Assembly: GCA_012729535.1 (NCBI GenBank)
Contig: JAAYCY010000066.1
Location: 1-64,000 of the forward strand
Direction of reading: 5' to 3'
Source: Methanomicrobiales archaeon
Lineage (GTDB): Archaea > Halobacteriota > Methanomicrobia > Methanomicrobiales > Methanospirillaceae
Length of the DNA stretch: 64,000 nucleotides
Of the stretch, positions 24,933 to 64,000 are shown in pieces (within the stretch, counting starts at the first letter, position 1; each line of letters opens with the position of its first letter). Below the pieces are notes generated by a model, which saw only the letters and a program-made list of their open reading frames with translations, searched no databases and was not told where the DNA came from. The translations under genes were made by a program, and so were the position numbers.

Positions 24933-25574
24933 ATGCCACCGAATATCCTCATTGTAGATGATGAACCTGCTTTAAATGAACTATTCGTAATCGGGCTGAA
25001 TAAATTTGGATTCAGAACAGAAGGTGTGCTAGGAGGACAGGAATGTCTGGATCTTCTCGAAACCCAGTATAAACCAGACTTAATCCTATTGGATATGATG
25101 ATGGAGCCAATGGATGGATGGGAAACCCTTAACCGGCTTAAAAAAATTAACAGGTTAAAAAACATTCCTGTTATCATGCAGACCGGGAAAAATCTGACCT
25201 ATAAGGAAGCTGAACAGTTCTCATATTATATAGAAGATTATATTATGAAGCCGGTGACCCCGAAACGATGTATTGACCATATCAAAACCGCTCTAATCAA
25301 GGTTCAGGCGTTAGAAAATATCATAGATCAGGGACTTCGTTCCGGGTATTCTGAGTACAAAATTCGCAAACTTGTGCATTTGTTCCGAACTATTTCTGTT
25401 GCAAAAAAGCTGTTGATAATTCTCGAAGAGAGATATGGATCCCAACAGATTACCGATGATAAGGAGACATATGGTCCTGGGGATTATTTCACATTCCTGA
25501 ATAAGCTGCAGGCTGAATATGATTCGTTACAAAAAGAGATTGATATCATAATAACTGGAACACTTCCATTGTAA
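24933..25574 (+). CDS. Response regulator with REC domain and helical tail
   Basis: This 213-aa protein has an N-terminal receiver domain: the acidic pair in ILIVDDEP, the phospho-acceptor Asp54 in ILLDMMMEPMDGW, and the lysine in YIMKPVTP. The C-terminal 90 residues are helical with no recognised DNA-binding fold, so output may be by protein contact. It is an orphan regulator here, with no kinase gene next to it. Confidence 0.88.
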   Translation: MPPNILIVDDEPALNELFVIGLNKFGFRTEGVLGGQECLDLLETQYKPDLILLDMMMEPMDGWETLNRLKKINRLKNIPVIMQTGKNLTYKEAEQFSYYIEDYIMKPVTPKRCIDHIKTALIKVQALENIIDQGLRSGYSEYKIRKLVHLFRTISVAKKLLIILEERYGSQQITDDKETYGPGDYFTFLNKLQAEYDSLQKEIDIIITGTLPL

Positions 25575-53917: not shown

Positions 53918-56869
53918 TTAATTTATTCCGATTCGCCATTTTCCTGCCAGAACCAGCATTTCAAACCGTACTCCTTTCCCATACGTTCCGGTTTCACTGA
54001 TTTTTATACCGGTGATGGAAAGAATCTCACCAATCAGGAATAATCCCATACCTGTATTTTTTCCAAAACCCCTCTCAAAAATCCTCATCTTGTCTTTTTC
54101 TAAAACACCGCCACCGTCATCTTCGTACACAAGAATACAATCATTTCCTTTAATCTGATACGAAAAATTGATTGATGTAAGGTTATTTCCATGACGAACA
54201 GAATTATCAACGAGATTATACAGTACCTTTTCCAGCATAAGGTCTGCATAAATCTCAAGGTTTTCAAGTTCAGACTGTAAGAAAATACCCTGTGCAAGTC
54301 CTGTTATTGTCTCTTCGTGGATAAGGGTTTCAACCCTTTGCCAGACCGGAGCAGAAGTTCCAAGATCCTGGTATTCTTTTGTCAGATTTATAAGTCGGGC
54401 AATATTAGATGATGTCTTATTGATAACATCAAGGTACTTAATGAGTTTTTTATCAGTTACCATTTCTTTCATCTCTTCACTATACAGTGAAGCAATCATC
54501 ACCCTGTTTAATATGTCATGCCTGGTGATACTGGATAGAATGTTGAGTTTGTGGTTTGCCGATTTAACTGCATCATGTGCATGTTTTATCTCATTAATGT
54601 CATGGATCTGAAGAAGTGTGCATAACTGCTTTTGGATATTAATACTGGAAATCGCCACCTCAGCATAAAACGGACTGTTATTCTTATTGATAAATTCTAT
54701 TTCAGTCCGGTTGACTTTCCCATCTTTAGTAACCGATGCTAACGGGCTGATTTCCTGCTCATCATCTGCAAATATGCCAATATTTTTAAGATTTTTTCCT
54801 GTAATTTCAGTATTAAACGTACCAAAAATCTCTTCAAATCCTTTGTTCACTTCAATGATTGTCCCCTTTGCATCAATAATTAAGATAGGATCCGGTGTCT
54901 GGTTGAAGATTGAAATAAATTTTTGTTCACTTTCTTTTAATGCCTGCTCATAAACTCTTCGTTTTGTAATATCCCTGCTTATACCCAGAAAACCAATGAT
55001 ATTGTTATGTTTGTCATGCAAAGATTTTGCAACAACTTCGGTCCAGACAGTAGAGCCATCCTTACAGGGTTGTTCAACCTCGAAAAACTCCGGTTCCGGT
55101 CTTAACCCTGTTTTTACTTTTTCAATAGTACTGTTCATTATCTGCATTGTAAGGGAGACTGATCCCGGAGAAATTGCATCAATTACCGGTTTTTCAATCA
55201 CTTCCTCCGGGGTATACCCTCTTAAATGATATACCGAAGGGCTGACAAACGTAAACCAGCCATCAAGGTTCATGGTCCAGATAACATCGGTTGAATTATC
55301 GGTAATAAACCGGTATCTCTCCTCGCTCTTTTTTAATTCTTCTTCAGCAAGTTTTCTGTCAGTGATATTGTGATGAGCTGAAAGAATACATTTTTTACCT
55401 TTAAATGATATAAAAATCCCAAAAAGAATGGCCCAAATCCGTTTTCCAGAAGATAATGAAAATTCAACTTCGTAATCTGTGACAATATTTTTATCCTTAA
55501 GTTTCTCAATCCAGTCTTTTCGTTCTTTGGGGTTAGTCCAAAAATCATGGATCATGATTGATGTTAATTCCCTGACTCCTTCCAGTTCAAAAAGTTTAAT
55601 TGCTTGAGGATTAGCATAAAGGAGGTTCCCGTTTATCGTAACTATTGTGATAGATACCGGGAAATTATCAATAATCTGTTGAAACTGAATTTCATATTCC
55701 ATCAGGGCACAGGATGTCATTTTTAATTCGGTAATATCCTGGTTTACCCCGAAAACCCTGATCGGTTTTCCTTCATTGTCTACTTCCAGTTCCCCTATAG
55801 TTGTTATATATCTCTCTTCGCCGGTACTTGGCAGCACAATACGCATTTCTGTGTTGTAGGGCAAACCTGTTTTAAGAGCCGTTTTAAAAATTTCCCTCAT
55901 CCTGGGTCGGTCTTGTGGATGAATCAAATCAGCAATCAGGTCATAACCTACCACTGATCCTAGTGGTAATCCGAACATGTGATATAATTCATCAGAAGCG
56001 GAATACTGCCTGGTTTTAAGATCAAGACTCCAGTTTCCAATCCTTGCAATCCTCTGTGTCTTCTCCAGGTTTTCCAGCGTCTGTTTCATTTTTTCTTCTG
56101 CCAGACTTCTTTTTGTAATATCAGTTGCCTGAACTAGCAGGAGATCTTCACCAGATGATGAAATGATATCCGCGGACACCAGCACATAAAGTAAATCATT
56201 GGTTTTTGTAAAAAAATTAACTTCCAGGTTATGGAGATATCCTGCCTCGTTTAAAGATTTTAAAAGTTCAGTTTGGGTTTCTTCTGTTAATATGCCAAGT
56301 TCAAGGAAAGTTTTTCCAATGACCTCTTCACGGGTAAAAAAGAGTCGTTTTAGAAATGCTTCGTTAACATCGACAAACCTCCCGGAGGAGAGTTCAGATA
56401 ACCCTGCAATGGAATGGTTTGCCTGGAAAATCTGATTAAAACGCTTTTCTGAATTAATAAGTTCTTTTTCTATTTTTCTTCGTTTGACTGCCTGTTCAAC
56501 TTTATGGCCCAGTTCAGCAAACTGTGCTTTGGGATCTCCTCCTTTCTGGAGGTAAAAATCGACACCGTGATTGATGGCCTCTATTACTATTTCTTCACGC
56601 CCTCTTCCGGTAAACAGGATGAAGGGTATATCCGGGTATTGTGAACGAATCGCCTTTAAAAATTCGATTCCATCCATTTCCGGCATCATATAATCAGAAA
56701 TAATTGCATCATACGATGAGATATTCCCAGACTTTATAATTTCATCTGCTGAAAGGGAAATATCCACAGAGAATTCTCCATTCCTCTCCAGGAATATCTT
56801 TGCCAGGTCAAGGAGGATTTCTTCATCGTCGACATAGAGGATATGGATCATGTTATTTTCCATTTCCAT
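53918..56869 (-). CDS. Hybrid sensor: receiver, multiple PAS, histidine kinase
   Basis: This 983-aa protein starts with a receiver domain (Asp59 in IISDYMMPEMDG), followed by about five PAS/PAC domains, and a C-terminal kinase core: ITRHDILNRV as the phospho-acceptor region and LYNLVDNSVRHG, YEDDGGGV and GMGLFLIGEI as N, G1 and G2 boxes. No transmembrane helix is seen, so it senses inside the cell. A GGGGAG ribosome-binding site lies before the ATG. The same HD-LN acceptor motif occurs in the DtxR-kinase fusion. Confidence 0.9.
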   Translation of the reverse strand: MEMENNMIHILYVDDEEILLDLAKIFLERNGEFSVDISLSADEIIKSGNISSYDAIISDYMMPEMDGIEFLKAIRSQYPDIPFILFTGRGREEIVIEAINHGVDFYLQKGGDPKAQFAELGHKVEQAVKRRKIEKELINSEKRFNQIFQANHSIAGLSELSSGRFVDVNEAFLKRLFFTREEVIGKTFLELGILTEETQTELLKSLNEAGYLHNLEVNFFTKTNDLLYVLVSADIISSSGEDLLLVQATDITKRSLAEEKMKQTLENLEKTQRIARIGNWSLDLKTRQYSASDELYHMFGLPLGSVVGYDLIADLIHPQDRPRMREIFKTALKTGLPYNTEMRIVLPSTGEERYITTIGELEVDNEGKPIRVFGVNQDITELKMTSCALMEYEIQFQQIIDNFPVSITIVTINGNLLYANPQAIKLFELEGVRELTSIMIHDFWTNPKERKDWIEKLKDKNIVTDYEVEFSLSSGKRIWAILFGIFISFKGKKCILSAHHNITDRKLAEEELKKSEERYRFITDNSTDVIWTMNLDGWFTFVSPSVYHLRGYTPEEVIEKPVIDAISPGSVSLTMQIMNSTIEKVKTGLRPEPEFFEVEQPCKDGSTVWTEVVAKSLHDKHNNIIGFLGISRDITKRRVYEQALKESEQKFISIFNQTPDPILIIDAKGTIIEVNKGFEEIFGTFNTEITGKNLKNIGIFADDEQEISPLASVTKDGKVNRTEIEFINKNNSPFYAEVAISSINIQKQLCTLLQIHDINEIKHAHDAVKSANHKLNILSSITRHDILNRVMIASLYSEEMKEMVTDKKLIKYLDVINKTSSNIARLINLTKEYQDLGTSAPVWQRVETLIHEETITGLAQGIFLQSELENLEIYADLMLEKVLYNLVDNSVRHGNNLTSINFSYQIKGNDCILVYEDDGGGVLEKDKMRIFERGFGKNTGMGLFLIGEILSITGIKISETGTYGKGVRFEMLVLAGKWRIGIN

Positions 56870-57018
56870 TATATTTCTCCCCTTTTTTTACAAGGGGCAT
56901 CAAAACCCTGATTTGGATGCCGGAAATAAGAAAATCCCTGTGTGAATTTATTATGATAAAGGGAAGATTGGAATGTATAACATGAATATCCTCTTATCCC
57001 TATAAAAAGGCTTCTTCA

Positions 57019-58959
57019 CTACACCCCGGAACCAATCCAGGAAAGCCAGATTGAATTGAGCAGGACTACAATTGTTGCTATCTGGTGACCAATTGCTCCC
57101 AGAACTGGTGATATCATTCCACCTGCAGCGATTCCGATGAGAATAAAATTGAGGGCCATTGCAAGAATAATATTTATTTCAATAGTTCGCCGGGTCCTCT
57201 TTCCCAGCGAGAGAAATGATGGAAGGGTAAAAAGACCTTCCTGCATCAATATTACTCCTGAACTCTCAAGTGCCAGTGTATTTTCCCTGCTTCCCATTCC
57301 TATCCCAAGATCTGCTCTGGTAAGTGCAGGGCCGTCATTTGTCCCGTCACCAACAAAGCAGACAACCTCCCCTTTCTCCTGGAGACTGGCAATATATTCT
57401 TCTTTCTGGACCGGATGAAAACCTGAATAAGTCATTGATTCTGGAATATCAAGCTCTTTTGCAATTCTTCGTGCAACATATTTATTATCTCCTGTAATCA
57501 TTGCAATTCTGTTATATCCCAGTTTTTGCAGAGAAGACAGTGCATTTTTTGTATCATGACGCAGCGTATCTGCAACCAATAATCTCCCGATATATTGTCC
57601 ATCCTTTGCAATCAGGACTTCCGTTTCATAATGATCGTTATCTGCTTTGGAATCTTTGGCATCATCTGGTATAAGTACGGAATTTTCGATGAGAAAATCC
57701 CTGTTTCCAACAATAATTGAGCTATTGTTAAATGTGTCAAAAGCTCCTTTCCCAGGAATATGTCTGGCCCTCATTGGGCCTGTGTAGACAATTCCCCTGG
57801 TTTGTGCTTCTTTTATAATCGCTTTTGCAACAGGGTGCGGAGATGATCGCTCAGCTGATCCTGCGACTTTGAGAATTTCTTCTTCTGATACTCCATTTTC
57901 AGGAATTATCCCGGTTATACTCATCTCACCTGAAGTCAGAGTTCCTGTCTTGTCAAATACAATGACGGTGATTTTTTTACAGATTTCCAGGTATTTTCCA
58001 CTTTTGATAAGAATTCCGTTTTTTGCAGCCGGACCAATAGCGGCCAGAACTGCTGAAGGAGTTGACAGGAGAAGTGCACAGGGACAGGCTACGATGAGAA
58101 CCGTAATTCCCCTGATGATATCTCCGGTTATAAGGACAATTATGCTGGCAAGGAGAAGAATGAATGGCGTGTAATATTTTGCAAACCTGTCAATCATCGG
58201 GTGTGAAGGTGGTCTTCGTATCCCTGCTTCTTTTACCAGTTCAACGATTTTTGCATAGGAAGACTGGGATGCCGGTTTTATTGCAGTAATAATCAGGACA
58301 CCATCAAGATTTATACTCCCTGAGAATACTGTCTCCCCAGGTTTTTTCAGTATTGGGTGGCTTTCCCCGCTCAGAAATGATTCATCGATAGCAGACTGGC
58401 CTTCAGATATTTTTCCATCAACCATGATACTATCCCCGGGTCTGATAATCACCTGGTCTCCCACCACAATGTCTTCAATGAGAAGATCAATCTCGTCACC
58501 GTTTCTGATTACCCTGGCAGTTGTTGGGAATGTGGACAATAAGGAATTGATCTCTTTGCCGGTTCTTGTATACAGGTATTCTTCAATGATCTCTCCAATC
58601 GTCAGGATAAGTGCAATCTCAGCTGCAGCGGTGAATTCTCCGATTATTACTGCAGCGACAATCGCAAGGGCTGCCAGTTCACATACATCCCATCTACGAT
58701 TGATAAGACCCAGAATTGCATCTTTTAAGATCGGATATCCTGTCAGGACAAGAGCTGCAATTGCAGCAGGGATCTCTAATTCATGTGGCCCTATTATTGA
58801 ATATTCTGTCAATACTGCAATTACTACCAGGATACCTGCCACAAAGAGCCTGATTACCTCTCTTCTGAATTTTTTATCATCATGATTGTGAGCATGACCA
58901 CACCCACACCCATGATCATGGCATCCCTCAGGTCCAGTATGCTGATGTTCGGATGACAT
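57019..58959 (-). CDS. P1B-type heavy-metal ATPase (probable Zn/Cd/Co exporter)
   Basis: This 646-aa pump has the P1B signatures: the transmembrane CPCALLLSTPSA, DKTGTLTSG with the phosphorylated Asp, and SSPHPVAKAI. The N-terminus has no CxxC metal-binding domain; instead it is His/Cys-rich (HQHTGPEGCHDHGCGCGHAHNHDD), which fits Zn2+/Cd2+/Co2+ binding. The CPC motif fits the copper and zinc groups, so the exact metal is inferred. A MarR gene precedes it by about 20 bases. Confidence 0.92.
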   Translation of the reverse strand: MSSEHQHTGPEGCHDHGCGCGHAHNHDDKKFRREVIRLFVAGILVVIAVLTEYSIIGPHELEIPAAIAALVLTGYPILKDAILGLINRRWDVCELAALAIVAAVIIGEFTAAAEIALILTIGEIIEEYLYTRTGKEINSLLSTFPTTARVIRNGDEIDLLIEDIVVGDQVIIRPGDSIMVDGKISEGQSAIDESFLSGESHPILKKPGETVFSGSINLDGVLIITAIKPASQSSYAKIVELVKEAGIRRPPSHPMIDRFAKYYTPFILLLASIIVLITGDIIRGITVLIVACPCALLLSTPSAVLAAIGPAAKNGILIKSGKYLEICKKITVIVFDKTGTLTSGEMSITGIIPENGVSEEEILKVAGSAERSSPHPVAKAIIKEAQTRGIVYTGPMRARHIPGKGAFDTFNNSSIIVGNRDFLIENSVLIPDDAKDSKADNDHYETEVLIAKDGQYIGRLLVADTLRHDTKNALSSLQKLGYNRIAMITGDNKYVARRIAKELDIPESMTYSGFHPVQKEEYIASLQEKGEVVCFVGDGTNDGPALTRADLGIGMGSRENTLALESSGVILMQEGLFTLPSFLSLGKRTRRTIEINIILAMALNFILIGIAAGGMISPVLGAIGHQIATIVVLLNSIWLSWIGSGV

Positions 58960-58979
58960 TACTCTACCGCCAAAACAAT

Positions 58980-59408
58980 TCAGATACGCTCGTTAATCTT
59001 TTTCAATAATACAATCAGGTGTTTTGTATCATCATCCCCAAGTAATTCGGCAATTTCAGCGGCCAGGTTGAGATGGTGGCGGTGATGCTCCTCAAATGCC
59101 TGTGTGCCTTCTTCAGTAAGTTCAATAATATATGACCTTCTGTCATGTTCTGCCCTGATCCTCTGGGCATACCCGCCTTTTTCTAACCGATCAACAGTAA
59201 TCGTTGTGGTTCCCGTGGTGATTCCAAGCTTGCCTGCAAGTTCTTTCATGTTCATCCGACCATAATGACCAAGAATTTCAATGGCATGTGCATCGGAAAT
59301 TTTGAGATTTCCGGCTTCAATAACTGATGATTCCCATGAAGTAAAACGGTCAAAAAATTCTACCAGGTGAGCATTGAGTTCTTCTTTTAGAGTGTCCCTA
59401 TCTTCCAT
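58980..59408 (-). CDS. MarR-family transcription regulator
   Basis: This protein of about 142 aa has a winged helix (MNMKELAGKLGITTGTTTITVDRLEKGGYAQR) with the MarR wing (RAEHDRRSYIIELTEEG). It starts at 59408, 20 bases before the ATPase start on the same strand. A perfect 12-bp inverted repeat lies just upstream at 59425-59455, so it probably represses its own operon. The inducer is not known; a metal is likely from context. Confidence 0.9.
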   Translation of the reverse strand: MEDRDTLKEELNAHLVEFFDRFTSWESSVIEAGNLKISDAHAIEILGHYGRMNMKELAGKLGITTGTTTITVDRLEKGGYAQRIRAEHDRRSYIIELTEEGTQAFEEHHRHHLNLAAEIAELLGDDDTKHLIVLLKKINERI

Positions 59409-59424
59409 TACTATCTTCCTAAAT

Positions 59425-59455
59425 GTTGGACAATCATATTGTTTGATTGTCCAAC
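59425..59455. promoter_or_regulatory. Operator-like palindrome upstream of the MarR/ATPase operon
   Basis: GTTGGACAATCA (59425-59436) and TGATTGTCCAAC (59444-59455) are perfect 12-base inverted arms with a 7-base spacer. They end 16 bases before the MarR start, where a MarR dimer would block transcription. The repeat is seen directly; binding is inferred. Confidence 0.75.
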
Positions 59456-59768
59456 TATTTGAATTTATGATATTCAATTCACGTGATTTTCAAAGAATCA
59501 AAATTAAACCTGAAATGAGCTGGCCAAAATAAATCTGGCGACTCTCTATTTTTACCAAAAAAAGACAGATTACGTCATGCTCTCAAAGATTCACACAGGA
59601 AAACCCAATAATAATAATACACAAATACCGGACCCTGAAAGTTCATTGCCAGATGTTAGTTTTTTTGAACATTTTTCACAAAGGAAAAAAAATTTTTGGT
59701 CACCACTCATCACTACCAAAATATAAAATTTGTAATGCGGGAGGCATATTCCCGCTTTTGGAATAGTA
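59456..59768. other. Promoter region of the small-ORF locus
   Basis: This stretch contains TTTTGGT (59694-59700) and ACCAAAA (59715-59721) as a 7-bp inverted repeat with a 14-base spacer, a TATA-like AAATATAAAAT at 59718-59729, and a hairpin at 59737-59755. No gene longer than 50 codons is convincing in it; a 66-codon minus-strand frame (59591-59791) has no ribosome-binding site. The plus-strand TATA points at the small ORFs from 59769 on. Confidence 0.4.
59737..59755 (+). promoter_or_regulatory. Hairpin at the predicted transcript start
   Basis: GCGGGA (59737-59742) pairs with TCCCGC (59750-59755) across a 7-base loop. It lies about 20 bases after the TATA-like stretch, so it would sit at or near the 5' end of a plus-strand transcript. 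Its function is not known. Confidence 0.4.
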
Positions 59769-59849
59769 ATGAGAAAAAAATCCGATCTCATAACTCATCT
59801 CAAAAAAGAGCGTGATCATGTCCATGGGAACATTGAACATAGAGCGTGA
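59769..59849 (+). CDS. Small ORF, 26 aa
   Basis: The frame encodes a short basic, His-containing peptide beginning MRKKSDLITHLKKERDHVHG. It has no strong ribosome-binding site. It overlaps the next small ORF. It could be a leader peptide or chance. Confidence 0.25.
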   Translation: MRKKSDLITHLKKERDHVHGNIEHRA

Positions 59850-59949
59850 TTTAGAGGCACTCATCAGTCACAGTAAAAATCTTGATGAGCATTTGCATCA
59901 TCTGATAAATGAGACTAATAACTCTGTAATAAATCCTGCTCCACTCTAA
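59818..59949 (+). CDS. Small ORF, 43 aa, His-rich helix
   Basis: The frame starts MSMGTLNIERDLEALISH and contains DEHLHHLI, so it is amphipathic with four histidines. A weak GAGCGTGAT lies just upstream. It overlaps the 26-aa ORF. No family is recognised. Confidence 0.35.
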   Translation: MSMGTLNIERDLEALISHSKNLDEHLHHLINETNNSVINPAPL

Positions 59950-60048
59950 ATGGGATGAATATTCGCCTGATAAAGAAGGTTCAGTACAAAATCTGCCACT
60001 TGGGGTTTCACTATCTCAAGTCACCACTAAACAAACAAAGGAGGTCAC

Positions 60049-60183
60049 ATGGGATGTCATGCATCAATCAGAGGGGCAATAAACATGGAACTTATCCCTG
60101 AATTTCTATGGAAATACATGGATAGTCCCCATGAAGAAAAAATCCCGGTTGATTGGGAAAACCAAAACGGTAAAACAGGTTAA
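60049..60183 (+). CDS. Small protein, 44 aa, strong ribosome-binding site
   Basis: The frame starts MGCHASIRGAINMELIPEFL and ends KTG. AAGGAGGTCAC directly precedes the ATG, the strongest Shine-Dalgarno site in the window, so translation is likely. The peptide has one Cys-His pair near its start, an aromatic middle (FLWKYMD) and an acidic tail. No family is recognised. It lies between the metal-exporter and iron-uptake operons. Confidence 0.6.
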   Translation: MGCHASIRGAINMELIPEFLWKYMDSPHEEKIPVDWENQNGKTG

Positions 60184-60487: not shown

Positions 60488-61717
60488 TTAAACCGGAGCA
60501 GAACAATTATTAATTTTCTGAATCTGGTTTTTTTCGTATACAGGTTCAATGTTATCAGATATTATTCCCTTTAATCGGAACAATCCCTCAGGAATTGTAA
60601 TTTCAAACCTGGCTCCCTGTCCATAAATCCCGCATTCATGGATATTCATACCACATGCATTAAGGACCTGATATGCGAGATAAAGGCCTGAACCAGGATT
60701 ATTCTGATTTGGAGCCTTTAAGATTAATGCTTTTTCATTATCAGGGATGCCATGTCCATCGTCTTGAATATACCAGATAAGGTTCCCTTCTGACACTGAA
60801 TAATCACTGATGATGCGAGTAACTCCCCCTCCATGGCGTATTGCATTGTCTACTAGATTAAATACAACTTTTTCTAAAATCGAATCTCCATAGACCTCTA
60901 TTGAACTAAGGTTGTGTTCAATCTTAACATCCCTGGTATCTATCATGGTTAAGGCATTTGATACAATATTGGCAAGATTCATCCACCTCTGTCCAGAAAG
61001 CCCGGGTATCAGGTGATCTGAACTTGTTGAAATCTGCCTGTTAATTGCTTGCACAGTTGATTCTATTCTTGAAACTACCAGGTTCATCTCATCTCCTGTT
61101 GACATTGTTTTTAACAGGTCAAGATACCGGTGAAGAGCGGTAATCGTATTCAGAAGGTCATGCCGGGTTATCACAGAGAGGATGTCATGATTTGCCTGTG
61201 ATTTAATTGCCGATTTTATCACCATCTCATTGTAAGCCGGCTCCTGGATAGTAGCCGAATTTTCCCAGGGAAGACCTGCATCCTGAATTTTTGAGAAGAG
61301 TTCAAGTGCAGAAATCGTCTGTGTGCCTGCCGGAGTGTTTAAAAAACTGACCAGGTTTCCAATCGCTGATGTCGTAATAGGAGAGAGTTCATGTTCGATG
61401 ATACAGGCTTCTTTGTTTGCAATATCAGGTGCAACGCCGATAAATTCAAAAAACTGCCGTAGTGTTTCATGACGGATATGAATAACTTCCCCTCTCATCC
61501 TGCCTTCAGAAGAGAGAAAAACTCCTTCATACCGTCTCCACTTCGCAAATCCAAGTCGGGATATTTTCCCCACCATCTCAACGACAGAAGAAGGCGATAC
61601 ATTAAGAGATCTGGCTATTTCTCCAGTCCTGGCATAACCTTTGGTTTTACTGAGCACATATATTGTTTCCAAGTAATCTTCCATTGCCTGTGATAACTTC
61701 TGATCCGTTTTTTTCAT
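60488..61717 (-). CDS. DtxR/MntR-type metal sensor fused to histidine-kinase core
   Basis: This protein of about 409 aa has an N-terminal DtxR/MntR winged helix and dimer domain (about 1-145), a linker, then a phospho-acceptor helix (SVITRHDLLN, His186) and a HATPase domain (FNLVDNAIRHG, DDGHGIPDN, GSGLYLAYQ). Metal ligands by alignment to MntR: Asp14, Glu17, His83, Glu108, His109, with Cys105 in place of Glu99, as in iron-type DtxR. No membrane segment or receiver is seen. The start has GGAGGGAATGGG upstream. It is last in the feo operon. Confidence 0.88.
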   Translation of the reverse strand: MKKTDQKLSQAMEDYLETIYVLSKTKGYARTGEIARSLNVSPSSVVEMVGKISRLGFAKWRRYEGVFLSSEGRMRGEVIHIRHETLRQFFEFIGVAPDIANKEACIIEHELSPITTSAIGNLVSFLNTPAGTQTISALELFSKIQDAGLPWENSATIQEPAYNEMVIKSAIKSQANHDILSVITRHDLLNTITALHRYLDLLKTMSTGDEMNLVVSRIESTVQAINRQISTSSDHLIPGLSGQRWMNLANIVSNALTMIDTRDVKIEHNLSSIEVYGDSILEKVVFNLVDNAIRHGGGVTRIISDYSVSEGNLIWYIQDDGHGIPDNEKALILKAPNQNNPGSGLYLAYQVLNACGMNIHECGIYGQGARFEITIPEGLFRLKGIISDNIEPVYEKNQIQKINNCSAPV

Positions 61718-62009
61718 CCCATTCCCTCCGTATGAGTGCATGTCCGCGTTTTGTGAGTTCCACTCTGCTTTCGATGTTATTTTCCCGGGTTTCGCAGGAA
61801 CAACTGCAACATGCACATGTGATGCCATTTTTTTTGCACGAACATTCCGTTGCTTTTTCCCCGTCCTTTTTGAGATATCCTGTGCTACACAGCAGAGATA
61901 TCCATGATGAAACTGAACTTGTCGGAATACCAAGTTCAAGGGCAAGTTCAGAGAGCAGGCATCCTTTCCGGTTATGGATGAGGTGAAGGATTTTCAGACC
62001 TTCACTCAC
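61647..62009 (-). CDS. Cys-rich winged-helix protein (FeoC-like)
   Basis: This protein of about 120 aa has an N-terminal winged helix (LLSELALELGIPTSSVSSWI) and a Cys cluster (CSCKKNGITCACCSCSC) where FeoC-type proteins bind an iron-sulfur cluster or metal. The GTG at 62009 is chosen because AGGGGTGA lies just before it; the frame extends further upstream to 62075. Its start overlaps the stop of the membrane gene by 8 bases and its end overlaps the DtxR-kinase start by 71 bases. FeoC assignment is by analogy. Confidence 0.65.
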   Translation of the reverse strand: MSEGLKILHLIHNRKGCLLSELALELGIPTSSVSSWISLLCSTGYLKKDGEKATECSCKKNGITCACCSCSCETRENNIESRVELTKRGHALIRREWDEKNGSEVITGNGRLLGNNICAQ

Positions 62010-62451
62010 AGCATTCACCCCTGCATGAACATTTATACAGGAGTTTAGATACTCCAAGATACAAGGGTATTGCAATAATTCCTGCCCATATAAATCCTGG
62101 GCTGAGAATCGTCAGGATGTTTGCTTCTTCTTCTCCTTCCATTATTGTTGTTAGAACATTTCCTCCTTCAATCAGGACAGAGCATCCGGCAAATACCAGG
62201 AGGAGGAGACTTGCAACATATGAAAAGCTGATCCAGCCCGGACGGTCAGACCTGCCTTTCATAACAGCAGTTGCAAATATGAAAGATATCAGGATCAGAA
62301 TGCACCCTCCCGGAATATCCGGTAAGATGAAAAATCGAGTAATGATTCTGGCCCCTTCAAGTATTGATAAGAAGCCTGCTATGAAGGTGGTCAGAGTTAC
62401 AATTACTGTCCACCCATAGAGATATTTGTGTGGGTATGTTGTGTTTGACAT
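62002..62451 (-). CDS. Membrane protein of the feo operon, Cys-rich tail
   Basis: This 149-aa protein has about four membrane helices and ends LLYKCSCRGECCE, a Cys-rich cytosolic tail. It starts 3 bases after the feoB stop and overlaps the winged-helix gene by 8 bases, so it belongs to the feo operon. No family is recognised. Confidence 0.7.
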   Translation of the reverse strand: MSNTTYPHKYLYGWTVIVTLTTFIAGFLSILEGARIITRFFILPDIPGGCILILISFIFATAVMKGRSDRPGWISFSYVASLLLLVFAGCSVLIEGGNVLTTIMEGEEEANILTILSPGFIWAGIIAIPLYLGVSKLLYKCSCRGECCE

Positions 62452-62454
62452 GTT

Positions 62455-64000
62455 TTATACTCCAATGAAGAGTGATCCGATGTGTAATACCAGGTATGCG
62501 AAGATGTATGCCATAAAAATTCCCCATCCGATAGCTATTCCTGTCCATTTCCAGTTGCCCATTTCCTGTCTGATTACTCCAAGTGCAGCAACGCAGGGGA
62601 GATAGAGGAGGACAAATACCATGAATGCAAGGGCAATTATCGGGCTTAATGTTGGATCTGCAGCGAGGGATGACTCGAGCATTTCCTCTCCGCCATAGAG
62701 AGTTCCAAGAGATCCGACTACGACTTCTTTTGCAATGAATCCGAAGATAAGACCTACAACAAGCTGCCAGTTAAACTCAAGTGGTGCGAATACCGGGTGC
62801 AGTGCCTGACCAATGATTCCTGCAAGACTGTCCACTGATCCGTATTCTACGCCTGCCGGCAGTGTTGCCAGGGCCCAGACCAAGAGAACTCCGCCAAAGA
62901 TGACAATACCTGCACGCTTGAGGTATTCCCTTCCTTTATGCCACATATGAGTTGCTGCAGCAAATCCACTTGGTTTCCTGTATGGTGGCAGTTCCATGAT
63001 GAAGGGGGATGGTTCGTCCTTGAACACGAGGCGACGAAATATTAGGGCAGTAACTATTGCCACGAATATTCCCAGGACGTACAGGAAAAAGATTACATTT
63101 CCTGCTGCTGCTCCAAAGAAAACTCCTGCAAACAGGACATATACCGGAAGCCGTGCTGCACAGGACATGAACGGGATAGTTATGATAGTAATTATCCGGT
63201 CCGCTTTGCTCTGGAGAGTTCTGGTTGCCATGATGGCAGGAACATTACACCCAAATCCAATAAGGAACGGGATAAAGGATCGCCCATGCAATCCAATCGA
63301 GTGCATCAGGCGGTCCATGACAAATGCTGCTCTTGCCAGGTATCCGGTATCTTCCAGGATAGAAAGTAGCAGGAACATAACAAAGATAGATGGTACAAAG
63401 ACGAAGACAGAGCCAACACCTCCGATTACTCCATCAGAGAGGAATGACTGGATAAATGGATCCATCTCGACTTCGTTCATCAGTTCGGTAAAATAACCAA
63501 ATATGTATTCTATTCCTACCAGGAACGGATTGGATGCACTAAAAGTTACCTGGAAGGCAAACCACATACATGCGAGGAAAATGGGTATTCCATAGAACCG
63601 GTGTGTTAATACCTGGTCAATCAGGTCGGCAGGCAATACCTGCCCCATGGTGCATTTTACCGCACAGGTTGTGATTTCTTCAGCAGTCCGGTACCTGGCC
63701 AGCAGGATATCTTCGGCAATACCGTCACGTTCTGCCGGATCGCTTTTATCGATGAACGGAATTACCAGTCCCTGGTCATGCAGCATCTTTTCCAGGTGTT
63801 CATCTCCTTCCATCAGGCGGATTGCGGCATAATGGGGTGAGAGTTTACCAAGAAGTGATGCATGAGAACTGAGATAGTTACCAATTTCGCCGATGTAGTT
63901 TGTAACTGAGTGCGGATACTCAATTTCCTTATGGGTGGCCCTGGTTTTTTGTCCGGTTACACGGATGATGTTCTCTACTAATGTATCAATTCCCTCTCCT
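62455..64000 (-). CDS. feoB: Ferrous iron transporter FeoB (partial)
   Basis: The C-terminal part of FeoB is present; the N-terminal G domain lies mostly beyond the window end, with its last segment (GEGIDTLVENII) still visible. The membrane part shows the gate motifs (GFGCNVPAIMATRTL and FMSCAARLPVYVLFAGVF) and a CAALGVIRQEMG segment. Ferrous iron import at the cytoplasmic membrane. It is first in the visible feo operon. Confidence 0.94.
   Translation of the reverse strand, partial: GEGIDTLVENIIRVTGQKTRATHKEIEYPHSVTNYIGEIGNYLSSHASLLGKLSPHYAAIRLMEGDEHLEKMLHDQGLVIPFIDKSDPAERDGIAEDILLARYRTAEEITTCAVKCTMGQVLPADLIDQVLTHRFYGIPIFLACMWFAFQVTFSASNPFLVGIEYIFGYFTELMNEVEMDPFIQSFLSDGVIGGVGSVFVFVPSIFVMFLLLSILEDTGYLARAAFVMDRLMHSIGLHGRSFIPFLIGFGCNVPAIMATRTLQSKADRIITIITIPFMSCAARLPVYVLFAGVFFGAAAGNVIFFLYVLGIFVAIVTALIFRRLVFKDEPSPFIMELPPYRKPSGFAAATHMWHKGREYLKRAGIVIFGGVLLVWALATLPAGVEYGSVDSLAGIIGQALHPVFAPLEFNWQLVVGLIFGFIAKEVVVGSLGTLYGGEEMLESSLAADPTLSPIIALAFMVFVLLYLPCVAALGVIRQEMGNWKWTGIAIGWGIFMAYIFAYLVLHIGSLFIGV

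Follow-up and report, generated by a model that had tools for sequence, protein, structure and literature searches.

Repressors of the DtxR family are classic examples of one-component switches. A gene in the window (the whole stretch of 64,000 nucleotides that was analysed) raises the question of whether such a repressor could, in the same polypeptide, also act as a histidine kinase. The gene lies on the minus strand at 60488..61717, and an earlier note read its 409-amino-acid product as a DtxR/MntR-type metal sensor joined to a histidine-kinase core, knowing of no described precedent. Our search of the published literature likewise found no described DtxR-kinase fusion, and the main text of a 2018 census of archaeal two-component systems does not mention DtxR (PMC5847659). 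In that census, M. hungatei JF-1, which belongs to the type species of Methanospirillum, has the largest archaeal set, with 133 two-component proteins (PMC5847659).

The open reading frame runs from an ATG at 61717 to a stop at 60488, its frame and coordinates check out, and a GGAGGG Shine-Dalgarno sequence is located 7 nt 5' of the ATG. Pfam identifies a winged-helix DNA-binding domain at residues 7–66 (61520..61699, minus strand; PF01325, 2e-18), a metal-binding and dimerisation domain at residues 70–128 (61334..61510, minus strand; PF02742, 1.4e-10), and a HATPase_c catalytic domain at residues 281–377 (60587..60877, minus strand; PF02518, 2.1e-11), all scoring above the curated gathering scores. 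DHp helices occupy residues 164–230 (61028..61228, minus strand), appearing in the AlphaFold model as two helices (164–204 and 208–230), and the codon of the predicted phospho-acceptor His186, within the motif HDLLN, is at 61160-61162 on the same strand. Searches against the PDB with phmmer matched residues 10–127 to Bacillus MntR structures and residues 175–377 to KdpD and other kinases, while Foldseek, matching the catalytic domain to HK853-type kinases, grouped the protein with DHp-CA kinases of that type. The AlphaFold model (48 sequences, mean pLDDT 71) is confident for the winged helix and the ATPase fold, and poorly defined in the linker (139–184). No transmembrane segment was found in the protein, the best 19-residue Kyte-Doolittle mean being 0.98.

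Full-length orthologs are present in 9 of the 12 Methanospirillum genomes, including M. stamsii and M. hungatei, with 51–84% identity. This bears directly on the possibility that an assembly or annotation artefact fused two genes, which the earlier note had placed at about residue 150 as the finding that would undo its reading. The orthologs align gap-free across an identical DtxR-kinase joint, and an assembly error is ruled out because the same fusion recurs in nine genomes, of which G001, G003, and G008 are single-contig assemblies; we therefore give an artefact practically no weight, and the joined protein described earlier is real. Both halves are under purifying selection. For the main ortholog pairs, pairwise dN/dS is about 0.04–0.07 in the DtxR half, the most constrained part of the protein, and mostly 0.09–0.17 in the faster-evolving ATPase half. 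Since these values are low in both halves, selection maintains the joined protein.

How widely is this architecture distributed? The same fusion was found neither in 220 other genomes of the class nor, outside Methanospirillum, in a 393-genome sample of the phylum, and among the matches listed only the kinase half was covered. Scanning the GTDB collection for conserved peptides, by which distant or independent bacterial fusions could be missed, gave no other fusion. Within these sets, the wider archaeal search suggested earlier led to Methanospirillum only. Within the genus, G004, which is 99% complete, keeps the feo operon and lacks the fusion gene; no fusion was found in G005 and G006, but these genomes are less complete and the absence is uncertain. 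For the kinase half, the nearest relatives are native PAS-type kinases from the same order, and stand-alone DtxR relatives of about 150 amino acids, with 45–51% identity to the DtxR half, occur in most Methanomicrobiales. The simplest history would be that a local kinase core was joined to a feo-linked DtxR repressor in an ancestor of Methanospirillum and that the fusion was subsequently lost in G004. A viral origin was considered and rejected, viral contigs containing no relatives. From these comparisons, the DtxR-kinase architecture appears to be conserved, genus-specific, and new among the published descriptions found.

The synteny also bears out the view that the fusion closes the feo operon. 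The operon is headed by feoA genes outside the window, and the fusion is its last gene, after feoB (62455..64000, minus strand, running past the window; Gate, FeoB_C, and FeoB_Cyto domains), a small membrane protein recognized by synteny in orthologous loci (62002..62451, minus strand), and a winged-helix protein whose wing is rich in Cys (61647..62075, minus strand; HTH_IclR, 1.9e-05). The gene for this last protein shares 71 nt with the beginning of the fusion gene. The Cys pattern of this wing is conserved in the genus and recalls the Fe-S-binding FeoC of bacteria. Eight of the nine genomes have the order feoB-membrane protein-winged helix-fusion; in the ninth, G011, the last three of these genes are seen on a short contig.

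Several other features were observed in the surroundings of the operon. On the plus strand, a 44-amino-acid mini-ORF (MGCHASIRGAINMELIPEFLWKYMD...) with a GGAGGT Shine-Dalgarno sequence (60049-60183) is conserved in position across the other Methanospirillum loci that were compared, and the remnant of a conserved His-rich ORF of about 60 amino acids (~59721-59950) is frameshifted in the window genome and G003 and intact in G010 and others. A search with Rfam on the conserved intergenic stretch downstream gave nothing credible. On the minus strand (53918-59477), a MarR-type regulator, a heavy-metal P-type ATPase with a His-rich N terminus, and a 983-amino-acid REC-PAS-kinase follow the feo operon as a group in G010, G001, and G003, and may form a metal-efflux signalling unit.

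Which metal might the DtxR half sense? The MntR-like ligands claimed for the N-terminal half were confirmed in a PDB alignment, in which Asp14, Glu17, His83, Cys105, Glu108, and His109 correspond to residues 8, 11, 77, 99, 102, and 103 of B. subtilis MntR. The last four are inside the PF02742 domain and the first two in the preceding domain; all six are invariant across the nine orthologs, and the stand-alone DtxR relatives that were aligned share them, Cys included. The family-level DtxR/MntR features that were tested are present, i.e., PF01325, PF02742 with the ligand set, and a palindrome in a metal-uptake promoter. Judged by sequence, however, the fusion fits neither the iron subtype nor strict MntR. 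Where iron-type DtxR/IdeR has Met10, Cys102, and an SH3-like third domain, the fusion has Asp14 instead of Met in all nine orthologs, Cys105, and the kinase core in place of the third domain. Of the strict MntR pair Asp8 and Glu99, the Asp is present and Glu99 is replaced by Cys105 in all nine, and the NCBIfam MntR model scores 111 bits, under its cut-off of 138. The earlier note took Cys105 as a mark of iron-type sensing. This residue is not diagnostic of iron, because the MntR of P. gingivalis, with the same Asp, Cys, Glu, and His set, binds both Mn2+ and Fe2+ (PMC4805248), and the aligned stand-alone relatives also carry the Cys. Asp14 with Cys105 makes a mixed site that may take either Fe2+ or Mn2+, with the feo context arguing for iron.

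A predicted operator for the DtxR half is located at contig C57:64940-64955, outside the window. In Methanospirillum, the feoA1 promoter contains a TTAG-N6-CTAA box 28–30 nt before the ATG, with a conserved TATA box about 20 nt ahead of it; the box overlaps the predicted feo transcription start. Of the nine genomes compared, namely G004 and eight that have the fusion, six have an exact box and three (G002, G004, and G008) a box with one mismatch; in three genomes a second exact copy stands 38 nt upstream. A scan of 13 Methanospirillum loci (145,650 bases) gave nine exact sites, all of them in the feoA1 promoter. In five whole genomes that were scanned, other TTTAG-N6-CTAAR sites were few, and none was beside another iron gene. 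The classical DtxR box, TTAGGTTAGCCTAACCTAA, has a TTAG...CTAA core with the same spacing. In other Methanomicrobiales, several stand-alone DtxR genes adjoin, or diverge from, feoA-feoB, and at four stand-alone loci a TTAG-N6-CTAA palindrome lies 36–50 nt upstream of the dtxR start. Because feoA-feoB is divergent at three of these four loci, the box is there in the shared promoter; the fourth has no feo gene on the contig stretch examined. The second feo locus of the window genome (L104:3457-5942, G000:C42), in which a conventional 210-amino-acid DtxR protein adjoins FeoB, is without such a box. Binding at the feo promoter, raised in the earlier note, therefore gains independent support from a DtxR-type box common to feo-linked stand-alone relatives. 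We infer, with good support, that the fusion binds DNA, and we regard metal-dependent binding at feo as quite probable.

Alternatively, the protein might be a metal-sensing kinase only, its DtxR half serving as an input without DNA binding while a different protein, e.g., the winged-helix protein, acts at the feo box. Another protein may indeed use the box, since in G004, which has no fusion, the feo operon and a box with one mismatch are still present; the winged-helix gene is also retained in that genome, and other winged-helix regulators are encoded beside the fusion. However, the winged helix and its recognition helix are conserved between the fusion and its feo-linked stand-alone relatives, the same type of box stands upstream of dtxR at the four stand-alone loci, and it is the DtxR half that is under the strongest constraint. 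We consider a kinase without DNA binding improbable.

Whether the C-terminal half is a working kinase is less certain. The HD-LN acceptor helix and complete N, G1, and G2 boxes reported earlier are all present in the window protein (HDLLN at 186–190, N287 and N291, DDGHG, and GSGL), so that it combines a DHp His and acidic neighbour with an HATPase_c domain carrying the N, G1, and G2 motifs. His186, Asp187, and N287 are invariant in the nine orthologs, N291 and G1 are retained in eight, and the first Gly of G2 in six. Pfam HisKA is not significant for the fusion (0.61), as is likewise the case for sister kinases of the same type, from which the F-box/ATP lid of the fusion has diverged. In the ortholog from G007, a MAG (L011, G007:C289), the kinase motifs are degenerate (N291Y, QNEGKEIP, and DDNLYV, with the G1/G2 glycines altered) beside an intact DtxR half, and to judge from these motifs it is a natural pseudokinase version.

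These departures feed the main rival explanation, that feo is repressed by the DtxR half, with the kinase half serving only in dimerisation or in ATP-dependent tuning of DNA binding and passing no phosphate to a receiver. The loss of the N-box Asn and G-box residues in G007, the diverged ATP lid, the faster evolution of the ATPase half, and the lack of a receiver gene linked to the fusion in all genomes would be expected in that case, and these points, together with the loss of the first Gly of G2 in three of nine orthologs, count against the dual function that we prefer. It is harder to reconcile with the invariant His186, Asp187, and N287, with N291 and G1 kept in all but one ortholog, and with dN/dS well under 1 in the ATPase half. 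We view a kinase half without phosphotransfer as rather unlikely, and it seems somewhat probable that the fusion is an active kinase in most species.

If phosphotransfer occurs, which receiver could be the partner? The orphan regulator at 24933, proposed earlier, does not co-occur with the fusion: this receiver is present across the order, other families included, whether or not a genome has the fusion, and it is not a specific partner because relatives without the fusion also have it. By contrast, a convergent REC-PAS-PAS gene without its own kinase lies downstream of the fusion in five of the nine genomes, with the phospho-acceptor Asp present by inspection, and G003 contains a C-terminal remnant of it (82% identical). 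In M. stamsii, the REC-PAS-PAS protein is encoded at L035:9521-10810. Neither the gene nor a remnant was found beside the window fusion gene, and no receiver is linked in every fusion genome. As five genomes carry the gene and G003 keeps a remnant, the REC-PAS-PAS gene is an old neighbour and a candidate, though not obligatory, partner, and it seems a better candidate than the receiver at 24933.

Taken together, we hypothesize that a feo-linked DtxR/MntR-type repressor gained a soluble kinase core and combines metal-dependent repression with a metal-controlled kinase/phosphatase, an explanation to which we give not quite an even chance. In this model, a homodimer of the fusion would bind Fe2+ (or Mn2+) at Asp14, Glu17, His83, Cys105, Glu108, and His109, and the metal-loaded form would bind TTAG-N6-CTAA at the predicted start of its own feo operon, thereby repressing iron uptake. 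The same metal- and DNA-dependent change might travel via a helix at about 129–146 and the linker into the DHp bundle, shifting the balance between kinase and phosphatase activity of the HDxxN motif on a separate receiver, i.e., the neighbouring REC-PAS-PAS protein where present and unlinked receivers elsewhere. Such coupling through the linking helix is plausible because each of the two modules, DtxR and DHp, forms a two-fold dimer, and, with a kinase core joined to a metal-dependent repressor, the metal state may also control phosphorylation. We see the case for gating of the kinase by metal as evenly balanced. That a single polypeptide both sits on DNA as a metal-dependent repressor of its own iron-uptake operon and works as a histidine kinase gated by metal (or by the operator) is held more tentatively.

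If the kinase works, the fusion would illustrate a way of connecting a metal repressor inside the cell to two-component signalling, with one sensor feeding both a one-component and a two-component output. Soluble and well delimited, the protein is a system that allows metal binding, DNA binding, and kinase activity to be measured on one molecule, and the box offers a hypothesis, at the level of the operator, of how Methanospirillum controls iron.

Among known systems, Bacillus MntR (PDB 1ON1, 6KTA) resembles the fusion in its whole two-domain core, ligand positions, and lack of an SH3 domain, whereas the fusion has Cys105 for Glu99, a kinase core, and a feo rather than manganese-transport context. 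P. gingivalis MntR shares the mixed Asp/Cys/Glu/His site, but has C-terminal FeoA domains and no kinase (PMC4805248). BqsS/CarS is a histidine kinase activated by Fe2+; unlike the fusion, it sits in the membrane, has its site in the periplasm, and is paired with a cognate DNA-binding regulator, having no DNA-binding domain of its own (PMC12666569). The stand-alone DtxR proteins linked to feo in Methanomicrobiales (loci L133-L148) have the same ligands where aligned and, in several cases, a similar palindrome near feo, but are only about 150 amino acids long and carry no kinase. The PAS-type kinases of the order (TRHDILN type) are 34–42% identical to the kinase half and share its H-box, although their input is PAS or REC rather than DtxR, and their conserved lid, FxxGxGKNTG, is replaced in the fusion. 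Bacteroides hybrid two-component regulators also unite a kinase and a DNA-binding domain in one chain; they have a membrane sensor, an internal receiver, and a C-terminal AraC-type HTH, whereas the fusion is without a receiver. Finally, DtxR and IdeR themselves have an SH3-like domain at the C-terminal place where the fusion has its kinase core.
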